A stretch of DNA of 64,000 nt. Origin: Utricularia gibba. Lineage: Eukaryota > Streptophyta > Magnoliopsida > Lamiales > Lentibulariaceae. This document shows positions 11,586 to 51,707 of the stretch, in pieces. The stretch is taken from NCBI GenBank assembly GCA_002189035.1, contig CM007992.1, positions 1,674,001 through 1,738,000 on the forward strand, given 5' to 3'. Each line of letters begins with the position of its first letter. The first letter of the stretch is position 1. Made by a program: the position numbers and the translations under genes. The notes under the pieces are model-generated. The model worked only from the letters and a program-made list of their open reading frames with translations. It was not told where the DNA came from and did not search any database.

Positions 11586-12115
11586 AACAAAGTGTCAGTT
11601 GCAAGATCTCGAATATGACAACCATGCAAGTAAACTTAAACTTAAGATCAACAAAGTTATCTTGATCTTAAGCTCGCATTTTCCCTCATTACTAATGATA
11701 GTTTAACCATGGCTTGCCTACTGTGGATGAGAAGGAATGTGACTCCTTAAAGTTAGAGATAGTTGATTGATCACTAAAGAATTCATCACTCATGTTAGAT
11801 ATGAAATCTTATTTCAAGTAATTGCATTAAAGCCTAACAGTAAGTCCTGAGCTTAGGGTAATGACACTCGAAGTGTTTGAGTAGGTCATTGAGTATTAGT
11901 GCTTAAATGCAATTATAAGTTGGATACATCAGAAACACATACACCCATGTTCTGATATCGAATGTGATATAAATATGATGAAAGTTGTTCATTGCATGGT
12001 GGCTAGTCATGAAAAGACTCAATCAGTTCACTTGATTATTTGTACATTTTGGGATCATAATATATTGCTAGACATCACTCATGATTGATAATAATGGATT
12101 TGTTAATTAAGAGTT
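11586..12115. other. Intergenic stretch, no gene seen
   Basis: No reading frame, inverted termini or duplication stands out between the two LTR copies. It is probably decayed repeat DNA. Confidence 0.4.
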
Positions 12116-13308
12116 TGATGGTGATTCTGCAAGTGTACAGAAACCGTCGAAGTAATAAAATAAGATCGTATCCACAGGGAATTGTTATTGGAATTTTCTT
12201 TTCAAACAAAGACTAAAAAAGACTGAAAACAAAAGAAAGATTTGATTTTGAAAACACTAAGAAAAGTGGCATTGGATCTAAGATCCACTTTGCTTAAAAC
12301 TCGTCCTTGCGTGTGTACAAACCTTGAGAACTGACTTACTTGCGCAAGCTTAGGGGTGTTATGCTAAAGTAGTGCTACTCGATGACCGTTATAGCACCGT
12401 CTCTTGTTTTGTGGGATTATAGAATCAACCACGCCACCAAAGTCATTTCATCTCTTGTGATAACCCATGTTTTCCCCACACCCAAATCTAACCCCTACAC
12501 CTCTCACCTCGTAGACAGATTAGACAGAATGTGTCTTACCAACGATGTTCAATTGAGTCCTTTTCTTTAGGTGCTTGAGGCCAACCTTTGATTCTCCCAC
12601 ACTCCCTTAAGGTTATATGGTACTAAAGATCACATTGGTAAAGAAAACGTTGCGAAAAGCAGAATCAGACCTCAAATTAAATACTGAAAAACATAGTAAG
12701 ACAGTCACACGCGCAGAACTTGCGCAAGCAAGGCTTCATAGCAGATCCTCAGCTGCAAAAGCCTACATGCGCATGCTTGACTCTAAACATCAAAAGTTGA
12801 TGAAAAACGAAGGGAAAGGAATCCAAAAATAACATGCTAGACTCGACTCTAAGCCCTAAATTGACTCTCTGATCGTCGACTATTGACTCTCCTTTAGGTC
12901 TTCGCGTTTGGATCTTTTTATAATGGTGGGGATTTGTCGGGCTTTCTTGATGGGCTCTCATCAAATTTTCTATCCGGATCTTCTAAGATTTTATACAAAT
13001 CTTCTAGAATAAGGTCCAAATTTTCTAAAATAAGATGCGAATCTTATCTTATCCAAGAGTCTTTGACCGAGTCTTCATCCAGATAGACCAAATATTTGCC
13101 TCCATCAAGATCAACTCGAAAATCCTTCAAATTATTCCAAATTCGTCCGGAAAAATCACAAAAACACTTTTCCTCTAAAAAGATCAAAGTGGTATGAAAG
13201 ATATAAAATTCTTCTAGAAACATAAGGAAAGTAGAATAAAAAGAATGCAAAAATCATCTAAATGAGTCCTAAAAAACACTAATATAGGTGACACAAAATC
13301 ACTTATCA
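12116..13308 (-). repeat. Family A LTR (3' LTR of the Athila-like element)
   Basis: About 1.19 kb, reading TGATAAGTGATTTTG at its start and CACCATCA at its end on the minus strand, the standard TG...CA form. A polypurine tract lies directly upstream of it. The same LTR type occurs as a solo copy at 43175-44359, in a truncated copy from 62967 to the end of the window, and as two head-to-head halves at 34798-37202. Confidence 0.8.
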
Positions 13309-14172: not shown

Positions 14173-15560
14173 TCAATTGAGTACCAAGTTGCACTCAATA
14201 CACCTCTCCAAAATGATGCCTAAGTTCTGCAAACATGAATCGAAATAAGTCCTATAAACAGATATATCATCCATAAATACCTCCATGATCTTCTCCACAT
14301 GTTCTAAAAAAATGGCTGTCATGCAACGTTGAAAAGTTCCAGGAGCATTGCATAAACCGAATGGTATTCTCTTGTATGCAAAAGTGCCAAAAGGACAAGT
14401 AAATGTGGTCTTGTGTTGATCTTCCGGATGGATTGGAATCTGAAAATATCCGGAATAACTATCAAGGTAATAATAGAAAGCTTGGTTATTTAACCTTTCC
14501 AGAATTTGATCAATAAAAGGCAATGGGTAATGATCCTTTCTGATGACATCATTGAGTTTCCGAAAATCAATACACATCCTCCAGCCAGTGACCTTGCACA
14601 AGGGGATGAGGTCTCCCTTCTCGTTTTGAGTCATTGTCATGCCTCCTTTCTTTGGTACGCAGTGCACTGGGCTAACCCATTGACTATCTGAAATAGAGTA
14701 GATGATATCATCATCCAACAATTTCAAAATTTCGTTTTTCATCACCTCCTTTGGCATCGGATTCGCCCGCCTTTGTGGTTGCACAATTGGTCTCACCTCA
14801 GCTTCCAAATAAATCTGATGACTGCAGAATTGATGGTCAAGCCCTTTCAAGTCATCCAAGGTGTACTCAATGGCTTGTCTGTGTTTGCGCAAGACATCCA
14901 GCAGCATTTGGGTGTGGTATTCATTCAATCCTGCGTTAACAATCACGAGGTAAGTGTGATCATCCTCAAGAAATTCGTACCTCAATGATGGTGACAGCTT
15001 CTTCAACTCAATTTTTCCTCCAGCATCAAGTTCCTTCTTTGTTAGCCAAGCCATCATTGGTGTGTCATTTGGAGTGTCTTCTTTTTTATCCTTCATAAGA
15101 TTTACTTCCTGAATTTCTTGTAGAAAAACTGCTTGTGCATGCTCTTGCGTAACAGCATCTTCCGCTCCCCCTTGCACAAGCTCGTCGCAGTCAAATCACT
15201 TCATTGCTTGATCAACATTGAACTCCAATTCCTCTTCCCTGAATTTGAGTGTCAATTAAGGCTCCTGTGATGGCCATAAAGGGTCTCCCAAAAATGATTG
15301 GCACTTCCACGTCAAGTACCATATCCAAAACAACAAAATCACAAGGAACAAAATTTTTTCCAATTTTTACCGGTACGTTTTCTACCACTCTTTCAGGATT
15401 CTTCATGGATTTATCAACAAATACCAGTTGAATTTTCGTGGTTCTCAGCTCCTCAAGATTCAGTGCTTTGAATAAGAAGTAATATCAAGCTGATACTTGA
15501 CCCAAGATCATATAAGCACTTCTTAAAATTGCTTCTTCCAATGATACAAGGGACTGAAAA
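14173..15560 (-). pseudogene. Retrotransposon protease and reverse transcriptase remains
   Basis: The protease keeps its DLGSS active-site type near 15.5 kb and a VPIIFGRPF segment near 15.3 kb, in different frames. The polymerase frame (334 codons, 14173-15177) shows the WVSPVHCVPKKGG, RMCIDFRKLN, PFGLCNAPGTF and FMDD segments in order; FMDD is the two-aspartate catalytic site. The frame stops just after CIECNLVLN, short of the thumb, RNase H and integrase. Stops and frame changes between protease and polymerase show decay. Confidence 0.85.
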
Positions 15561-28406: not shown

Positions 28407-31400
28407 ATGGGCATCTTCTCAGTGTCAAGCTCGCTTCAAGTGCACCTGCTGATATGTCTCTTGGTTGCTTATTCAACCACAGCCTCCATGGATTTGAGCA
28501 CCGATGCAATGGCTCTCTTAACCTTCAGAACGCAGCTATTTGGGGAGCCTTCTTCACTCAACTGGTCTGATACTACTCTTGTTTGTAATTGGACAGGGGT
28601 CACATGCGGTTCTCGTCATCTCAGAGTGGTTGGCTTGAATCTTTCTGGTATGGGATTACAGGGGAGTTTACCTCAGGCAATTGGAAATCTCTCGTTTCTC
28701 ATCTCTTTGGATATGTCGAGAAACCATTTTAACGGCAGCATGCCACACGAATGGTCTGGATTGCGAAGACTCAAAATCATGGACTTGAGCGAGAATGATC
28801 TGAGTGAAGCAATTCCTCCGTGGATCGGACTCTTGAACCAGCTCCGGCTACTGCGTCTTCACAGCAACTCACTCGATGGCTTCTTGCCATATTCCATAGG
28901 CAATGCATCAAGGCTTGAGGTGCTGGTCCTGTACAATAACCAGATAGGGGGTACACTACCAACATCACTTTTTAACTTATCCAGCTTGCAGCTCCTGAGC
29001 ATTGGGTCCAACAGATTTGAAGGCACTCTCCCATCTCATCTCTGTTCCGGAATTCCGAGCATCATGTTCTTGATGCTTCAGATGAACCAGATAGAAGGAG
29101 AGATACCTTCCAATATCTCCGCTTGTACACAACTAGAAAGGTTCAGCTTGTATAGAAACAAGTTGGGTGGTACCATTCCTTCAGACATGAGCTCTCCTCT
29201 CACACCACTATGGGAAATCCATCTAGCTTACAACAATGTAGTTGGTGAGCTCCCCAGAACTTTAGGGGAATGGAAGGCACTTGAAATTTTTTCTATAGAA
29301 GAAAACAATATTACAGGAACCATTCCATCCGGACTCTCCAACTTGACCAATTTACAGAGGATGGAGTTCAGAAGCAATAGAATCTCAGGCATGTATCAAA
29401 TGCTTTTACGTTCGAAAATGCTTGTCTCTTTGTTCACTCTTTTGTACTCATCTCCAGGCACAATTCCGAATGAGTTTGGAACACTTAGTAACTTGGAGGC
29501 CTTTGGAGCGAACAACAATAACTTACGGGGAGAAATTCCAAGTGGGTTTTTCAATGTTTCAACTCTTCAAGTGCTTACCATTGCTAACAACAGAATTACT
29601 GGACAACTTCCTGTTGATTTCTGCTTTCGGCTTCCTAATTTGGTGGGACTATACTTGGCTGTGAATGAACTCTCTGGGGAACTTCCACGATCCATTTCCA
29701 ACTGTTCAAGTCTTCAGGTCGTAGATTTTTCATCAAACCACTTCACAGGGATTATTCCGAGTACCATCGTAGAGATGAGATTCCTAAGGATAGTAAACTT
29801 AGAATTCAACAACTTTAGCAGTGAATCATCGGGAATGAGTTTTCTTAGTGCAATGACGAACTGCAGACAACTAAGTGTATTGGGGTTATCAGGTAATCCT
29901 TTTATAGCATCACTGCCAAATACTGTTGGTAATTTGTCAACTTCACTTGAGTACTTTCGTTGCATCGATTGTGGCCTCCATGGAGTCATTCCTGTAGGAT
30001 TTGGAAATCTTACCGGCTTGCTCTTATTGTCTCTGCCACGAAACAATCTGATGGGATCTATTCCAACCACGTTTGATAAACTTCAAAAGCTTCAAGGTTT
30101 GCATTTATACAGAAACAACATCAGTGGATTCATACCGAGTGCTCTATGTAACTTGCACAGTGCGAGCTCCATAGGTCTTTATGGAAACCAGATTGGTGGG
30201 AGTATTCCTACATGCATCGGAAATCTAAGCTCTGTAAGAGAACTCTGGATTTCTGAAAATAACTTAGAATCCACCATACCATTGAGTTTGTGGCAACTTA
30301 ATAATCTTCTTGAGCTAAACTTGTCTAGAAATCACTTGAGTGGTTCCATTGCTTCTGATATTGGAAATCTGAATGCTGCACATCTTCTTGATCTTTCGGT
30401 AAATAATTTTTCTGGTGTTATTCCAACTTCCATTGGATACATGAGTAGATTGACAGATTTGTCATTCGCATATAATGAATTCCAAGGCATGATTCCAGAG
30501 ACTATTGGCATGATAATGAGTTTGGAAAGATTGAATCTGTCTCACAACAATCTTTCCGGGGGGTTCCAAAAGCTTTACAGCAAATTTCAAGTCTTGCGGT
30601 GCTTGATGTTTCTTACAACAGGTTAAGAGGTGAGATTCCTACAGAAGGGGCCTTTCGTAACTTCTCTTATCAGTTCTTTGAATCAAATGAAGAGCTTTGT
30701 GGTGAACCTCGATTCCATGTCCGTCCATGCCAGGTCTTGAGGAATGGATCACAAAGGAAAAAAGTGATTCTTTCCCTCATGGCTGTTTTGCCAATACTCA
30801 TTGTTTTTTCAATAGCTCTGCTGGTGGGATGGACCTTGAATAACAGGCGACATGCGTTACACGACGAAGAAAACCAACCATCAAGTGTACTCCCACTTAG
30901 AATATCATATCATGCTATTCTCCGAGCAACTGAGAACTTGAGCCAAAGTTACTTACTTGGCAATGGAGGATTTGGGTCTGTTTACAAAGGAGTTCTGTTG
31001 GATGGGCAAGTCGTGGCAATCAAGGTGTTCAATCTACAGAACGAGAAGGCCTTGAAAAGCTTCGATGTAGAATGCAACATACTCCGAAGCCTGCGTCACA
31101 GAAACCTATGCAAAGTCATCAGTGCATGCTCCAATCCTGATATCAAAGCACTGGTCATGGAGTTCCTTCCTAATGGGAGCCTCGAGAGGTGGCTCCATGG
31201 CGAACACCACTTCTTAGACATCTTCCAAAGATTCTCCATCATGATAGATATTGCTTGCGCTCTCGAGTATCTCCATCAAGATTATGACGTTCCCATTGTG
31301 CATTGTGATTTGAAGCCAAGCAATATACTTTTGGACGAAGCTATGACTGCCTACTTAAGTGACTTTGGGATCGCCAAGTTTCTACAAGACATGGACAGCC

Positions 31401-31913
31401 CTGTGCAAACTACTACCTTCGCAACCATAGGATACATTGCTCCAGGTAAATTTTACTTCCCATGTTATACTTTTCCAACGTGAAAAGACTTACCAGCGCT
31501 TCTTTCCAGAGTATGGCTCTGAAGGTTTGGTGTCGACAAGATGCGATGTGTTCAGTTTTGGTATAGTTTTAATGGAAGTGTTCTCTGGGAGGAGGCCTAG
31601 CGATGAAGTGTTTGTGGGAGAATTAACTCTCAGGAACCTGGTAGAGAAGTCCATGTCCACTGGCATCACACAAGTAGCAGACCCAAGACTGGTGAATCTC
31701 GATGATACAACAGATTTCTCTGTGACATTGAATTGTTTGTCTTTGGCGATGGAGTTGGCCTTGAAATGTTCAATGGAAAGTCCAGTAGAGAGACCCACAA
31801 TGAAAGATGTTGTGGCTACTCTGAAAAGTATTGCACGTATGCTTCCAAATAATTCTACAGAGAAGATAAGAGATGCATTGCCTGCAACGCAATTCCCCGG
31901 TTACCGGGTCTAA
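28407..31913 (+). CDS. LRR receptor-like kinase, subfamily XII, non-RD, with one-base frameshift
   Basis: The order is signal peptide (about 1-27), LRR cap with CNWTGVTC, about 23 leucine-rich repeats, a membrane helix (around VILSLMAVLPILIVF), and a Ser/Thr kinase. The kinase has GNGGFGSVYKG, VAIKVF, HCDLKPSN and SDFG. HCD instead of HRD makes it a non-RD kinase, as in Xa21, EFR and FLS2. A GT-AG intron (31446-31509) splits the kinase at the position common in this subfamily. Two oddities occur. A run of six G at 30558-30563 shifts the frame between the last LRR and the juxtamembrane part. A 69-base in-frame insert at 29389-29457 looks like a small intron. The rest is well kept, so either the gene broke recently or the assembly has a homopolymer error. 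Its ligand cannot be told. Confidence 0.85.
31446..31509 (+). other. Kinase-domain intron of the LRR receptor kinase
   Basis: GT-AG intron between GYIAPG and EYGSEG. Its removal joins the activation segment to the APE-equivalent part of the kinase in frame. The 64-base length is short but normal for plants. Confidence 0.85.
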
Positions 31914-32135: not shown

Positions 32136-34551
32136 CTAGGATCTTAATCTGTATGCATCCTTGAGTGTGGACTTCATGTATTTCAGAGCGGATCTCAGCA
32201 CTGCCTTTGCTTTCCTGTCAGGAGCAATGCCAGATACCAGCATTTCTTGAAAAACAGCAGGAACCTGCAAACCAGCAACAAAAAAGGCTAGTTATTTGGT
32301 TCCCCGGATACAGCAACAGCAGAATAAAGTGGCTACGGACCTTATCAAACTTCTCCACACGAATCAACGCTTTCATGAGTGTGGTGTAAGTTACAACATC
32401 AGGTTTCAAGTCCTGCAGTAACAGAACGCAGCAAGGGGATGAATCAGACGTAAATTGACGAATCCCCAAGATCTCAACCTCACCCTCTTCCTATTACCAT
32501 CCTGCTCTGTCTATATTGTACTCAAAAGATGATGCATTCGGTTGGAGTCACTTACATTCTCCTTCATGTACTGCAAAACTGCAAATGCTTCGGTGTCTCT
32601 TCGATCCTCACTGAATGCATTAAGCAAGGTGTTGAGAGCTAACAAGCTTGGCTTTAGGCCTTCACCTCTCATGACCTTGAAAGCAATTACAGCATTCTCA
32701 GATAAACCCTGCAGAGAAATACACAGAACAATGGATTCAACATATTGTCCCTCCATGTAACGAAAAAAAAAAAAGTGTAACAATCTGTCCGATATATAGA
32801 GTGCAAACCCTTCGAGCATAGGCATTGATGAGAGCATTATACATTGTGGCAGAAGGTCTCAGCCCGGCTAACTTCACTGCCTCCATGCACTCTATTGCTT
32901 CATCAAATCTCCCAGATTGTCCGTATACGTCTACTAGGGTGGTGTAGGTGAAAACATTGGGAACCAGTCCTTGGCTTAGCATCTTTCCCAAAAGCTTCTT
33001 CACATCATCCCATCTCTCTTGGGCACCAAATGAATTTATCATGATGTTGTACGTTGTGGCACACGGTATGCAGCCATTCTGTTGCATCTCCTCGAACAAT
33101 TCCTCCGCCTTTTTGTGATGCCCTTGCTTGCAGTGACAATCTATAAGCGTGTTCCATGTCACGTTATCGGGTTCAAACCCATCTGCCTTCATCCTCTCAA
33201 ATGTGTCCATCATATGTTCAATACAGTTGCATTTCCCAAACATGTCGATCATTATATTGTAGAACTGAGCATCCGGGCTCACACCAAATTCTTTCATTTC
33301 ATTCAAGACATGGAATGATTTCTGCCATTCTCCTTTATCTCTGTAATTTGTCAATATTCTGCTGAAAACGAATGAAGTAGGCTTCACACCAGATGACTGG
33401 ATTTCTTTCAGAATAATCCTTGCACAATCCCATCTCCCAGCGTTTCCATATGCATCAATGAGCAAACTATGCGTATGCTCATCTGGTAAAATACCACTGT
33501 TTTTCATTTCTGAAACAATGTACTCTGCACTTTTCAAAGCTCCCACCTTTGCATATCCTTTCAAAAGAGCATTATATGCTCTAGTGCGAGGTTTCATTCC
33601 ACCATCCTTAAACTCCTCGAAAACCGCCTCTGCTTCTTCGATTCTTCCCAAGTTCCCCAACTCGTTCACTACTGAAACAATAGTGCTTGTCTTTGCACTC
33701 AAACCACTTCCCTGCATAAGCCCTAAGAAGTAAAGTGCTCTATCTATATCTCCAGCTTTGGAAAAACCCAAAATCAAATCGTTCAACAATTGCACGTCTA
33801 ACTCTATAAAATCATCCTCCATTTGGTTGTACAGCTTCTCCAGCATGGCTGCATCGACACAGTGACTCTTGATCAAAGATTGAATAATCAGACTATAATT
33901 AGCAAAATCATTCTGATGCCCATCCAGCCGCATTCTTTCCATCAAATTCAACGCTTTTTCAAGATCTCCATTCCTCGCACACGCCCCAATAAGAGCGTTG
34001 TAGGTCAAGGGAGTCAAGCTCTGACGCTGAGATAAAAGAAAAGCCTCGTAAAGCTTCTCATCCCGTCCCAAAGCATGGACTAGAATGGAGTAAAGAAGTT
34101 CGTAAGAGAAACAGATTTTGTGTCTTTGAAGCCATGTGACTAGAGAATAAGCAGTAGAAAGAGAGGAAGACGACAGACAGAGATTTTTCAGGAGGGAATG
34201 CCAATGAGTGGCAGGAACAGCGCTGTACAATTCTGCAAGGCGGAGCTCCACCGGGTCAGTATACGACGATGGGTCGGATTCTGAGGTAGCTCGATATTGA
34301 TTTGAGAGGAAATCGAGAAGTGGAGTGAAGTCGAAACGAGCGTTGGGCAGCACCCCGACGCATTCGAGCGGGTCAAGGCCATCTTCCGCTGAAGTGGAAT
34401 CAACTTCTTGGGGGATAGCCGGCAAGACTAAGCGATAATGGAGATGATAACTGCGGCTGCGATAGCGGAGAAAGGTGCCCGGCAACGGCGGCCGGAGAGG
34501 AGGGTGCCGAATATGAAACAGCGGCTGAGGGAGCAACAACGTGTTCATCAT
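32136..34551 (-). CDS. CRP1: CRP1-type chloroplast PPR protein (4 exons, 698 residues)
   Basis: Exons 32809-34551, 32556-32708, 32341-32412 and 32136-32264 give 698 residues. The first 60 or so residues are rich in Arg, Ser and Pro with few acidic residues, as in a chloroplast transit peptide. Behind residue 170 follow about a dozen 35-residue PPR units of the pure P type, recognisable by repeated TYN-LI, G-M and P(D/N)-TY patterns, with no E or DYW tail. Such proteins bind single RNAs sequence-specifically. Length and order match maize CRP1 and Arabidopsis At5g42310 (from memory), which are needed for petB-petD transcript processing and petA and psaC translation. The last three small exons sit where other CRP1 genes also have introns, as far as I recall. 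It converges with the LRR receptor kinase gene; the stops are only 222 bases apart. Confidence 0.9.
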
Positions 34552-34797
34552 CCAGCCTCTCTCCCAATGGAAATCGCTCTATGTTATTTATTTATAAAAT
34601 ATATGTAACTATAACATAGCTATACGTAAATAAATTTTTAAAATATTATAATAAACGTATTTAAAATATATAAAAAATTAAAACATAATTGATTAATAAA
34701 AATAATGTGAAATAAAAATTTTGAAGTGTATGATTAAATGGATTGTGCAATTGTTTTATAAATCGTACATACATTAAATAATATTTTTATCACATTG
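34552..34797. promoter_or_regulatory. Upstream region of the CRP1-type gene
   Basis: This AT-rich stretch lies directly ahead of the CRP1-type start codon and ends at the border of a palindromic LTR structure. The whole non-repeat upstream region is thus about 250 bases. No specific element could be assigned. Confidence 0.35.
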
Positions 34798-37202
34798 TAA
34801 TAATTAATTTTGTATCGTTCCAAAACATGTTCTTTTATTACTCTTAAGTATTGTTTTTACTTATTTTAGACTCTAATTTCTCATTATTTTCAATTAATTT
34901 TGTATTTTTCACACTACTTTGATTTTTTTGAAGATAAATTATATTTTGTAGATTTTTGGAGTACTTTTGGATCAATTTGATGAGAAATCAAGACCCACCA
35001 AATTATGGACTTGATGGGTCACGAATCTCAGCCCAAGATTCGGTCAAACGATGAAGATTTGGTCCAAAATTAATGGATAAGATAGAGATATGAAGAAGAT
35101 TTTTAAAGATTTGAATATAAGATATTATTCAACCCCATCAAATAAGTTCAATACGAAAACTTAGATCTAATGTCTTACAAATAGTCCACCCTCTCAACCA
35201 TTAGAGATGTCTTTGACTACTTTTCTTTTGTATCTTTCCTATTTTCATGTCTATTTTCATGTTAAAGTCGAGTTTGTGCGCATAGGTGTTTGCAGCTAAG
35301 GATCTGCGGTGAAGCCTTGCTTGCACAAGTTCTGCGCGTGTGACTGTCTTACTATGTTTTTTAGCATTTAATTTGAGGTTTGATTCTGTTTTTCACAACG
35401 TTTTCTTTACCAACGTGATCTTTAAAAACAGAATCAAACCTCAAATTAAATGTTGAAAAACATAATAAAACAATCATACGCGCAGGACTTGCACAAGCAA
35501 GACTTCACTGCAGATCCTCAGCCGCAAGTGCCTACATGCGCATACTCGACTATAACATGAAAATAGACATGAAAATAGAAAAAATACAAAGGAAAAGTGG
35601 TCAAAGAATGTTTCTAATGGTTGAGAGAATGAGGTATCTATAGAAGAGTAGATGATAAACGAAAAATTCACACGTCGTAAATGTAAACTTTCCTATCAAA
35701 TAAATTTATAACCTAATACACATTCAAGCATAAAACAATTATGAGCATAGTGGATTAGGGTCGAACACAAGGAGCTAGGTGTTTGCTATGTGAAGGTCAA
35801 TGCAAGGAATCAATGTCTTGTTGGTAAAATTGGTCTTAGCTAGAACTAAGGCAGAACTAAAACGAAATACAGTAAAGAAAAGTAATAAGTTCTAGAGTTC
35901 GGTTGTTTCTGGAATGGAATGGGTGATGCCTTGGGACTCGTACGGGATGTATGCTCATCACTAAACAAACTCACACAAATCACAAATCATACAACTAATT
36001 CACAAGATCTAGGTCTACCCGGATTCTTGTTTTTCCCCCTAATCTTTGGTCTACCTCTAATTAGGGTTGTTAAGTTGGGTTTCACTACTTCCCCCTCCTG
36101 GATTTATCCTGGTTTGTTAAGGAAGTGGCGTGACTCATGACTGTTTAGATCTAAAGGTTGATTAATATGTTTCTCCCCTTTTTACCCCAAGGCACCCCCT
36201 AAGTACTTAGCCACTCATGCTTAAGGCAAACGAAAGTGAAAAAGAAAACATCACCCACAGTGTGCTCATTTCACAGTCAAATACTAGAAAACAAACAAGT
36301 AAGTAATATGAAGTGTCAACAAAAACTAAAAAACGTCACTAGCTACTCTTAGCTAGGGGTAATATTCTTCGAAGACAGAAAATAATCTTGAACTTCAGTT
36401 TCATTCCTGTTTGTCTTCTTTCTTCTTCCTCCCCAGAAAACCTTCTCCCCAGAAAATGTGTTCGTGAGTCTCCAAGGGTAGATCTGATTTCTCTCTCCAA
36501 CTTTCCTTATTTTTTTCCAAAATCTCCCTTTTTACTCCTTGGATTTTGTGTGCACCAATTTTCAGACTTTTGGACTCATCTTCTGCCACTACATTGTGCA
36601 TGTTCGGCTCCTTTGGATTTGTGTTGTGACCTACACTGCATTGCTTGAATTAAACTATTAGAAGGTTGGGGCTAAATCACAGATTTAGTCCCAATTAAGA
36701 CTAAAATCACACAATTACGGTACTTATGCACAAAAATATAAAATTAGGTAGTAAAACTAAATTTTTGTAACACAATATGAATTTTTTCATGTATTTAATC
36801 ACTCAAAAATATGTGTTATCAGTAGATCTAAGTCTTTGTATTGGGGTTGTGTTGATGTATTTAGATAATATCTTCTATTCAAATATTTTATCCAAATCTT
36901 CGAAAATCATCTTCATATTTCTATGTTATCCATGAATCTTGGACTAAATCTTTTGATCGAGTCTTAGGCTAAGATTCAAGGCCCATCAAGTCCATAATTT
37001 GGTGGGTCTTGATTTCTCTTTAAATCGATTTAAAAGTGTTCTAAAAATCCACAAAATATACTTTTTCTCCAAAAAAATCAAAGTAGTTTGAAAAATGTAA
37101 AATTAATTGAGAATAATAAGAAAATATAGTCTAAAATAAATAAAAACAACACTCAAGAGTAATAGAAGAACATGTTTTGAAACGATACAAAATCAATTAT
37201 CA
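34798..37202. repeat. Head-to-head pair of family A LTR halves (palindrome), right arm split
   Basis: The left arm (34798 to about 35424) reads as the first half of an A-type LTR. The right arm (about 35425-35652 plus 36827-37202) is the same segment inverted. The arms are about 0.6 kb each, and the centre lies in the AACGTGATCTTTA/AAAACAGAATC region. Both outer ends are the LTR start, TAATAATTAATTTTG at the left and the inverse of TGATAATTGATTTTG at the right. The second half of the LTR is missing from both arms. A transcript through it could fold into a long hairpin, though the arms differ at many positions. The flanks share only ATTG, so how it arose is open. Confidence 0.8.
35653..36821 (-). 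repeat. Family B solo LTR, copy B1, with 5-bp target duplication GTAGA
   Basis: The ends are TGATAAACG and GTTATCA, which also form a short inverted repeat. It is flanked by GTAGA at 35648-35652 and at 36822-36826, the 5-bp duplication usual for LTR retrotransposons. Length 1169 bases, non-coding. It interrupts the right arm of the palindromic A-type structure and is therefore younger than it. No internal retrotransposon sequence remains, so recombination between two LTRs has removed it. Confidence 0.9.
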
Positions 37203-37860
37203 ATTGTATAAAACTTATGATAAAATTAATTAAATGTGATTAATTTATTAAATCGCGAAAACTAATTATTTCAAGCATTCAAATACGAGAAATCAACCAA
37301 TTAAAGATCAAATATAGTAATATGCCGTATTTTGAGATTAATTATATCTGATATGCAAGATGTTGAGAATCAATTTTATTTTCTAATATCAAATATTTTA
37401 TCTAAATATTTTAAAATAAGATGTAAATCTTATCTAATCTGAAATTTATAGATTGAATTTTCATCCAAATAGCTATATATTTTATTCCATCAAGATTATA
37501 TATTTTTTTTAAATTACAAGCATATTTTCTTTATAAAAACGATAATTTAATATAAAAGATATAAAAATAATTTAAAATATAAGAAAATCTAGATAAAACA
37601 AATGTAAAGCGATTTAAAAATATTACAAATATAAGTGATAAAAAAATTAATTATGTCTGATATGAAAAAAAATATTGAGGATTAATTCTACCAGTGGAAA
37701 TGAAATGTGTAATTTATATTAAAAAATAGATTATTTTATTAAAATATTAAATAATAGAATATTTTAACGTATTTTTCAAAGATTTAGATAACGCTAAAAT
37801 CTGTCTTTTAAGGGTAGGGTGGATAAATGGGCCTGAGGGTGAAGCCCATCTAGAGAAAAT
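37203..37860. other. AT-rich intergenic stretch
   Basis: Very AT-rich DNA without a reading frame of note. The right end approaches the pyrimidine-rich 5' exon of the next gene and likely holds its promoter. The tract at about 37.2-37.7 kb looks like degenerated LTR sequence, but the match is too weak to name. Confidence 0.4.
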
Positions 37861-43174: not shown

Positions 43175-44359
43175 TGATAAGTGATTTTGTGTTACTTATA
43201 TTTGTACTTTTTAGGACTCACTTAGATGGGTTTTGCATTCTTTTTATTTCACTTTCCTTATATTTCTAGAATAATTTTATATCTTTCATACCACTTTGAT
43301 CTTTTTGGAGGCAAAGTATGTTTTGTGATTTTTCAGAACGAATTTAGAATAATTTGGAAGATTTTCGAGCTACTTTGATGGAGGCTAAAATTTGATCTAT
43401 CCGAATGAAGACTCGATCAAAGATTCTCAAATAAGATAAGATTCACATCTTATATTGGAAAACTTGAATCTCATCTTGGAAGATTTGTGTCAAATCTTAG
43501 AAGATTTGGATAGAAGATTTGATGTGAGCCCATCAAGAAAGCCCGATAAATCCCCACCATTATATAAAGATCCAAACGCAAAGACCTAGAAGAGAGTCAA
43601 GAGTGGACGACCAAAGAGTCAATCTAGGGTTTAGAATTGAGTCTAGCATGTTTTGGATTCCTTTCCTTTCATTTTTCATCAACTTTTATTGTTTAGAGTC
43701 AAGCATGTGCGTGTGAGCGCTTGCGGCTGATGATCTGCTGTGAAGCCTTGCTTGCGCAAGTTCTGCGCGTGTGACTGTCTTCCCATGTTTTTCAGCATTT
43801 AATTTGAGGTCTGAATTCTGTTTTTCGCAATGTTTTCTTTACCAACGTGATCTTTAGTACCATATAACTCTAAGGGAGTGTGGGAGAATCAAAGGTTGGT
43901 CTCAAGCACCTAAAAAGAAGAGCTCAATCGGACATCGTTGGTAAGACACATTCTGTCTAATCTGTCTGTGAGGTGTGAGGGATTAGATTTGGATGTGAGG
44001 AAAACATGAGTTATCACAAGAAGTGAAATGGCTTTAGTGGCGTGGTTGATTCCATAATCCCACAAAACAAGGGACGGTACTATAACGGTCATCGAGTAGC
44101 ACTACTTTAGAATAACACCCCCAAAGTTTGCGCAAGCAGGTCAGTTTTCAAGGTTTGCACACACGCAAGGGCGAGTTTCAAGTAAGGTGGATCTTATATC
44201 CAAGACCATTTTTCTTATTATTTTCAAAACCAAATATTTCTTTTGTTTTCGATCTTTTTGAATCTTTGTTTGAAAAGAATATTCCAATAACAATTCCCTG
44301 TGGATACGATGTTATTTTATTACTTCGACGGTTTCTGTGCACTTGCAGAATTACCATAA
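43175..44359 (+). repeat. Family A solo LTR with 5-bp target duplication AATGC
   Basis: It starts TGATAAGTGATTTTG and ends TTACCATAA, with a length of 1185 bases. It is flanked by AATGC at 43170-43174 and 44360-44364, a perfect 5-bp duplication. The last bases are AA where the other copies have CA, a mutation at the very terminus. It is the plus-strand counterpart of the LTR at 12116-13308. No internal sequence remains between LTRs, so it is a solo LTR. Confidence 0.9.
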
Positions 44360-49683: not shown

Positions 49684-51467
49684 TCATCAAGAACACTCAA
49701 TCAGCCCACCATAAATTTATTCTCACAACTACAAAGACTACGCACTCTTTTCATCTAGCTTGTTGTTCTTCAGTTTTCTTCAATTTATGGGGCTTACAAG
49801 ACCTTTAAAGTTTAATTTTCATCCTTATACTATTTCAAGTGATCCTTATCCTTAATACCATGGTGTTATAACCCTCTTTCACATCTTGAACAATGCTATT
49901 GGCCCAAAAGGTAGCTACCACATTGCTGCAACTATTTTGATGTATTCTATTTCCTTGTTCCCTCCTTTATCGTATAAATTTCAGATGAAATGTTGATATC
50001 TTACAGGGTGCTCAAAACAAACAATATCTTGCAATGATTTGATGACTCGTTAAATCATGATACAAATCATTAACATTGGAGGTCTAATGGTTGACTCATC
50101 ATTAATGCAAATGAAAATCTTGCAGATATTGTATGCCATTCATTCAATAAATTTTAAAGAAAATAAATATAACACAATTTACATAGTATAAATATTAGTT
50201 ACATAGAACTAATTTTCTAGAGAAAGGTGAATTTGCAAATCTTATACACATTATTACAATTTTTTTAATTGGAGTTGAATAATGGAAACAACATAGATAG
50301 ATTTTAAATAATGAATCTTGAATAAGGAAATTATATTAGGGACTAAAAATTTTTTCTAGCAATATTTGCTCTAAATGTCATCTTTATTTGACTCTTTCAA
50401 GTAAATGGTTATAGGGGAAAATAACTATTTATGCTCCCTTATATTCTTTGGTAAGGAGGTAAAGGAACTACCTTGTGTGATTCCCCTCTCATGACGAACA
50501 AGGAATCAATAAGATTTGTCACACTTTTGCGTCAAAGAGTAAATTATTCATGTCTTCTCAAATGTTATCAATAACTAAATGACATAGTTATGAGGTCATT
50601 GTCTGCCCATGATGGAGTTCATTTGGTTAATGATAAATCAGTATCGCTCTCAAACTAGAAGAATTGGAGATAATCCTAAAATTAACATTTATATGCAATA
50701 AAACATGTAATAATAAAGAAAATTACATTGATATGAAGAAAACATACAAACTATTATATTGGAATCCTAATTGAACAAATGTAACCACATTTTAACATAA
50801 AAATATATACAAAATAATAAGAAAAACTCACTTAACAACAAGTAATACTAATCCTCTCTATTTTGAAGGTCATATTTTCTTTGTTGCACTATTTTCCTTG
50901 AACCGTATAAATATATAAGATGGAGGATATTGCATTAGCTGAAGGCGGGGAGGTGTAGACCTGGAAAGGCTTTTAAGGGAAATGATGTGTCGATCCATGT
51001 GAATGAGGGTAGTATTTAACAAGCCTCACTGAATTTTGAATGTCTAATGTTGCACTACTACAATGTGCTTATCTAACACACTGGAAGACCTTTATTGTGG
51101 ACTCGTATACACCCTTTTTTACAATGATGTGGATGTGTGTAGACATGCACTTTTGTTCTGATCATTGTTGCACCATTGTTTGCTAGGAGCTTCTTTTGTC
51201 GTGAAGATAGACATGCTTTAAACTGCTCAAATTCTAAGCAAGATGAATGTTCATTTGCGGAGAATATCAAATAAGTGAAAATTTCAATCACCGCAATTTA
51301 GTACTTGTGATCCCTACATCTCCTGGCATACAACCCTTTGAGTTAATGCAAATATGGTATGTGGTATTTGGAAGTCATGTGTTTATAAATCATTTGTTTG
51401 ATTTCATGCATTTGTGGTGCATCAAGCATGATATTGAAAATCACCAAGTCATGAGTGCATTTATACG
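49684..51467. other. AT-rich intergenic stretch
   Basis: No reading frame resembles a known protein, and no terminal repeat was seen. It is probably old transposon remains. Confidence 0.35.
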
Positions 51468-51707
51468 GAATCCCTTATCAAAAACAAAATATGTGATTAA
51501 ATAGTAAACACCATTAAATAATCTTGTATATTTAGAATAAAACTTAACCAAATAAAAGCTTAGTGATTGTTTCTAAATTCTAGTCATACAGAATCCCTTA
51601 TCAAACACAAAATATGTGATTAAATAGTAAAAACCATTAAATAATCTTGTATATTTAGAATAAAACTTAACAAAATAAAAGCTTAGTGATTGTTTCTAAA
51701 TTCTAGG
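51468..51707. repeat. 123-bp direct tandem duplication
   Basis: The segment starting GAATCCCTTATCAAA at 51468 is repeated from 51591, with only a few differences (for example AAACACC against AAAAACC). The period is 123 bases. Neither copy is coding. Confidence 0.9.

Follow-up and report, generated by a model that had tools for sequence, protein, structure and literature searches.

The question raised by this locus is how two first halves of the same kind of long terminal repeat (LTR) came to lie back to back, as an inverted pair, at positions 34798-37202 of the 64-kb window (the whole stretch of DNA analysed here), and what such a palindrome might mean for the gene beside it. Two facing LTR halves of about 0.6 kb had been described by the first-pass annotation, and both the repeat scan and alignment to the LTR family bear this out. 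The left arm (34798-35424, plus strand) consists of the first 627 bp or so of an LTR of a family that we call family A, while the right arm is the first 605 bp or so of the same LTR, reversed, starting at 35424 on the minus strand and divided into an inner part (35424-35652) and an outer part (36827-37202). The outer limits of 34798 and 37202 and the axis near 35424, as first proposed, correspond to the LTR termini and the inversion junction. The repeat scan recovered an outer arm pair (34800-35052 with 36948-37200; 253 nt, 87%) and an inner one (35210-35393 with 35424-35607; 184 nt, 86%, 30 nt between), and these are the sole inverted pairs of at least 100 nt within 2.5 kb of each other across the 64-kb window.

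The right arm is split by a solo LTR of a second family (1169 bp, TGATAAAC..TGTTATCA, 35653-36821, plus strand) which is flanked by its own target duplication, GTAGA, at 35648-35652 and 36822-36826. Copies of this second family elsewhere are 86-95% identical to it, and most of the copies read have 5-bp duplications. When the arms were aligned in pieces, left arm against the inverse of the right with the intervening solo LTR counted as a gap, the identity was 85.8% over 579 columns. The 82 differences comprise 64 transitions and 18 transversions (K2P 0.16). Plant substitution rates lie between 1.3e-8 and 6.5e-9 per site and year, and if the arms were identical at origin this distance corresponds to about 6-12 million years. 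The structure is an old, decayed scar, present as a single and unusual locus.

Family A provides the reference against which the arms can be read. Its LTRs are about 1130-1170 bp long, start with TGATAAG and end with CACCATCA, and a 5-bp target duplication was found in 17 of the 29 rows read, some of these rows being one locus fetched twice. Some copies are preceded by the purine tract GTGTGGGGGAGT, while others have AGTTTTTGGCGCC.. directly after them, and in two loci (L007 and L078) the polypurine tract GTGTGGGGGAGT stands directly before TGATAAG. A primer-binding site follows the LTR as ..ATCA|AGTTTTTGGCGC in L054 and L070 and as ..GGCGCCGTTGCCGGGGA in L005; it resembles a primer site for tRNA-Asp. 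Elements of the non-chromovirus Ty3/gypsy type include tRNA-Asp among their primers (PMC6317226). The TG..CA ends, the duplication of fixed length, the polypurine tract and the primer site together identify family A as a true LTR, and some copies are the 5' or 3' LTRs of fuller elements. One such nested copy, L054 (G000:C4:1637700-1645000), lies about 30 kb before the window and has two direct family-A LTRs 5.3 kb apart, between which a further LTR of a related subfamily is inserted in reverse; its five ORF fragments, searched for coding domains of family A, gave no Pfam match. Within the window, a minus-strand ORF (14173-15177) near a family-A-related LTR (12114-13308) encodes a reverse transcriptase domain (RVT_1, E 1e-20).

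At the other places where the arm sequence was read, no fewer than 19 loci, it forms the first half of a whole LTR and the normal second half follows it. The palindrome is therefore a peculiarity of this one site, and family A is not normally built in this way. Nor is it an ordinary solo LTR, which would be one complete LTR between duplications; here there are two inverted copies of the first half and none of the second. A 25-base junction pattern has one occurrence in the 100-Mb assembly with up to three mismatches allowed. When a 191-base query spanning the axis was searched, all matches outside this locus were to single LTRs, to which its two halves aligned in opposite sense at overlapping places. 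No second palindrome of family A was found by the junction search, the junction pattern or a repeat scan of the other LTR loci (best 40 candidates, three mismatches or fewer), and a search of the same genome for a duplicated or empty copy of the locus gave AT-rich matches only. DNA transposons of the fold-back or MITE-like type, which have long terminal inverted repeats, would look similar, as an inverted repeat with a short flanking direct repeat. Such an element is nevertheless a very improbable explanation, and was rejected, given that the arms are halves of LTRs which in the other copies examined are whole and non-palindromic and have a polypurine tract and a primer-binding site, and that no dispersed palindromic copies were found in the searched genome or among the other LTR loci scanned.

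Palindromes are also a known artefact of hairpin-adapter reads, and the first-pass annotation had named assembly artefact as one finding that would overturn its description. An assembly or long-read fold-back error, however, should not leave arms that differ by 14%, a solo LTR with its own duplication in one arm alone, and arms that stop at the LTR termini and do not extend into the flanking DNA. We consider this explanation excluded, and the least probable of all those discussed here.

The outer ends of the palindrome are both LTR 5' termini. The right arm stops exactly at the terminus (AATTATCA, the inverse of TGATAATT) and is followed by ATTGT at 37203-37207, a candidate target-site duplication. 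The left arm starts with TAATAATT and is preceded by ATTG, its terminus reading TA instead of TG (TAATAA.. here, TGATAA.. in the family). The flanks therefore agree at four of four positions without gaps (ATTG), or at five of five (ATTGT) if the LTR has lost its initial T, and the left candidate duplication occupies 34794-34798 on the latter count, of which ATTG is certain. A match of this kind arises by chance in 0.9% of mismatched family-A flank pairs and at 2.6% of local AT-rich positions. In plant LTR elements duplications are mostly of 5 bp, with 4 bp in 6% (PMC6317226). The left end can be read in an alternative register, with a 2-bp insertion, that leaves no target duplication, and for this reason we regard the duplication as moderate evidence. 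Neither a polypurine tract nor a primer-binding site was found beside the outer ends.

At the axis, the left arm agrees with the family sequence up to ..GATCTTTA / ..ACGTGATCTTTA (35424), and the inverted copy starts with AAAAACAG.. / AAAAACAGAATCAAACC.., a single A at 35424 being common to both. In LTR coordinates the inverted copy starts 30 nt further upstream than the point at which the left arm ends, and the resulting offset (35394-35423, plus strand) belongs to the left arm only and would form the loop of a hairpin. It is conceivable that such a junction arose by fold-back DNA synthesis at a double-strand break in a resident LTR, half of which was copied in reverse; short inversion junctions with a loop of a few tens of nucleotides are typical of that process (PMC11724301), and the 1-bp overlap would agree with it. 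Copying of this type should have continued into the left flank, whereas the inverted arm stops at the LTR terminus, and documented inverted insertions are mostly 5-34 bp in length, not 600 (PMC11724301). The position at which the inverted arm ends makes repair of this kind an unlikely origin.

Close to the junction, a stretch of about 95 bp in the left arm (35330-35424) is 94-97% identical to many LTR copies, including those at 12624-12773 and 43721-43856, against only 84-87% for the whole left arm and its best matches. This peak of similarity may mark either a conserved segment or an old recombination between two LTR subfamilies.

The descent of the arms bears on whether one or two source copies were involved. 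The similarity between the arms does not exceed that of either arm to other family-A copies. Maximum likelihood trees were built for three pieces, the outer one, the inner one and one of 148 bp near the junction, and in none of them do the arms group together. The right arm is placed with L059 in the outer-piece tree (98/94) and the left arm with L070 in the inner-piece tree (97/88). In spite of this, the AU test does not reject sisterhood of the arms for the three pieces (p 0.55, 0.38, 0.44), so that a single source molecule is possible and so are two source copies. Derived states shared by the arms were considered as a signal of kinship and discarded: there are 23 of them relative to the majority, mostly C-to-T or G-to-A. 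L059, which is not palindromic, has an equal number in common with the right arm in the outer piece, so that parallel decay accounts for them.

These results leave two explanations of some weight. The main rival supposes two independent family-A insertions in opposite orientation, both reduced to solo LTRs, followed by a central deletion that removed the second half, the spacer and the inverted second half, perhaps through the instability of long palindromes. It is a possibility to be taken seriously, although we doubt it. Opposed or nested LTRs of the family do lie close together elsewhere, as in the inverted pairs of L054, and the family occurs on both strands in the window; the placement of the arms apart in every tree (right with L059, left with L070), and the fact that they resemble each other no more than either resembles other copies, would also suit two insertions. 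On the other hand, the match of the ATTG(T) flanks would then be a coincidence (1-3%), by our own estimate only about 5% of pairs of independent deletion ends would come to lie so close (30 nt) to one another in LTR coordinates, and sisterhood of the arms is not rejected.

We favour a single integration of an aberrant palindromic cDNA, with a probability of roughly one half (0.52), because the ATTG/ATTGT flanks would match by chance in only 1-3% of cases. The LTR 5' terminus at both ends with no polypurine tract or primer site outside it, the single locus in the searched genome and the tendency of the family to make 5-bp duplications also speak for this. Against it are the TA at the left end, a duplication that is exact only at 4 bp or with one assumed deletion, and our literature search, in which no published palindromic half-LTR insertion was found; the separation of the arms in the trees of all three pieces counts against one molecule folded back on itself. 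Sabot and Schulman (2007, PMC1950507) relied on a shared target duplication to tell complexes formed by template switching from those due to recombination after insertion, and applied to this sequence the same test appears positive, with moderate confidence and not beyond doubt. Aberrant retrotransposition and repair had both been offered as origins by the first-pass annotation. The former, with LTR 5' termini on the outside and a candidate shared duplication, is now the best supported, while fold-back repair has become unlikely.

The single integration could have come about as follows. During plus-strand synthesis the strand copying the LTR would have stopped about 627 nt in and switched, by means of a 1-nt match, onto cDNA of the opposite sense, which may have been the element's own cDNA after folding back or another cDNA packaged with it. 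A template switch fits the near-symmetric breakpoints, which are 30 nt apart in an LTR of about 1150 bp, and the 1-bp overlap. After the switch the LTR would have been copied back to its 5' terminus, placing one such terminus at each end, and integrase might then have inserted the palindromic cDNA as it would a normal element, duplicating the target. Co-packaged RNAs that differed slightly would account for arms that were never identical. Subsequently, the arms would have decayed by C-to-T change and the solo LTR of the other family would have been left in the right arm. What the sequence shows directly is the anatomy, the LTR termini on the outside with no polypurine tract or primer site beside them, the junction with its 1-bp overlap and 30-nt offset, and the divergence of the arms; that a template switch took place, that integrase was used and that the duplication is shared, with its ambiguous left register, is inferred.

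Whether the palindrome has consequences as RNA is a separate matter. The neighbouring ORF, on the minus strand (32737-34551), encodes a 604-aa PPR protein, putatively CRP1-type according to the first-pass annotation, whose start codon at 34551 is 247 bp from the palindrome, in agreement with the distance of about 250 bases reported before. A transcript of the palindrome could possibly form a hairpin: folded in silico, the inner arms (463 nt) give -279.8 kcal/mol compared with -99.9 for shuffled sequences (z -34), and exact arm-to-arm matches of 26, 29 and 37 nt remain, which makes such an RNA physically possible. The conserved TATA motif of family A (TATAAATA, at about LTR position 377-393) is present in both arms in mutated form, as TACAAATA in the left (35176-35183, plus strand) and TATAGATA in the right (35635-35642, minus strand), positions being counted along the sequence. 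If still active at all, these relic LTR promoters would converge, and a transcript started at either of them would run directly into the other arm.

Traces of use were sought in the pattern of decay, with L059 serving as an ordinary, non-palindromic and equally diverged control copy. The arms show C-to-T change of 30/13/19-23% at CG/CHG/CHH sites, and L059 shows 25/27/20%, CHG counts being small; there is no excess of such decay in the arms relative to this control. There is also no strand-specific bias towards pairing, the 32 G.U differences, which keep pairing, being equalled by 32 A.C differences, which break it. The earlier proposal that the hairpin could feed small-RNA pathways accordingly divides in two: the fold is strong in silico, but the traces of use that were looked for in the sequence were not found. 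C-to-T decay matches that of L059, G.U and A.C differences are equal in number, both TATA boxes carry mutations and a 1.17-kb insertion interrupts the right arm. Regulation or silencing of the PPR gene by the palindrome would be unsupported speculation as far as the sequence is concerned.

Two other features of the window may be recorded here. Between 28407 and 31913 an ORF with an LRR domain (28407-30626) and one with a kinase domain (30599-31483) lie in different, overlapping frames; they could belong to one receptor-like kinase gene in which either a frameshift has occurred or an intron was not recognised. At 51463-51706 a 121-bp unit occurs twice in tandem, with 97% identity between the copies.

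If one integration did occur, it would follow that the LTR integrase of plants is able to act on an inverted cDNA that has a 5' LTR end on either side. Tentatively, and at somewhat less than even odds, we suggest that integrase joined a palindromic cDNA of half-LTRs to the genome by its two LTR 5' termini, giving a class of insertion, with target duplication, that would be annotated as two truncated LTRs and in which two promoters converge on their own hairpin. Other genomes may then hold palindromes mislabelled as pairs of truncated LTRs, and these could be natural sources of hairpins near genes. Claims of this type can be checked from sequence alone by means of the termini, the target duplication, the phylogeny of the arms, decay relative to an equally old control, and the balance of G.U and A.C differences.

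Among known systems, break fold-back insertions (PMC11724301) resemble this locus in the microhomology at their inversion junctions and in a loop that is some tens of nucleotides long, but at mostly 5-34 bp they differ from an arm of 600 bp that ends at an LTR terminus. Plant Ty3/gypsy-like solo LTRs similarly consist of LTR sequence and lack an internal region, and have a target duplication, for which there is a candidate here; they are, however, one complete LTR produced by LTR-LTR recombination, whereas here there are two inverted first halves and no second half. The Mu killer locus of maize, an inverted repeat of MuDR (PMC2725412), is likewise derived from a transposon by rearrangement, and like the palindrome it could be transcribed into a long hairpin from which small RNAs arise. 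Mu killer is a demonstrated trans-silencer of a DNA transposon, while the present palindrome is known as sequence and its arms have diverged by 14%. A further parallel is with the template-switch LTR complexes that Sabot and Schulman (2007, PMC1950507) described from Triticeae and rice. These are abnormal products of reverse transcription of an LTR element, recognised by one duplication around the complex, as is proposed for the present locus. Those complexes are built of direct repeats, with three LTRs and two internal regions, unlike the inverted pair of LTR halves described here, which is joined without any internal region.
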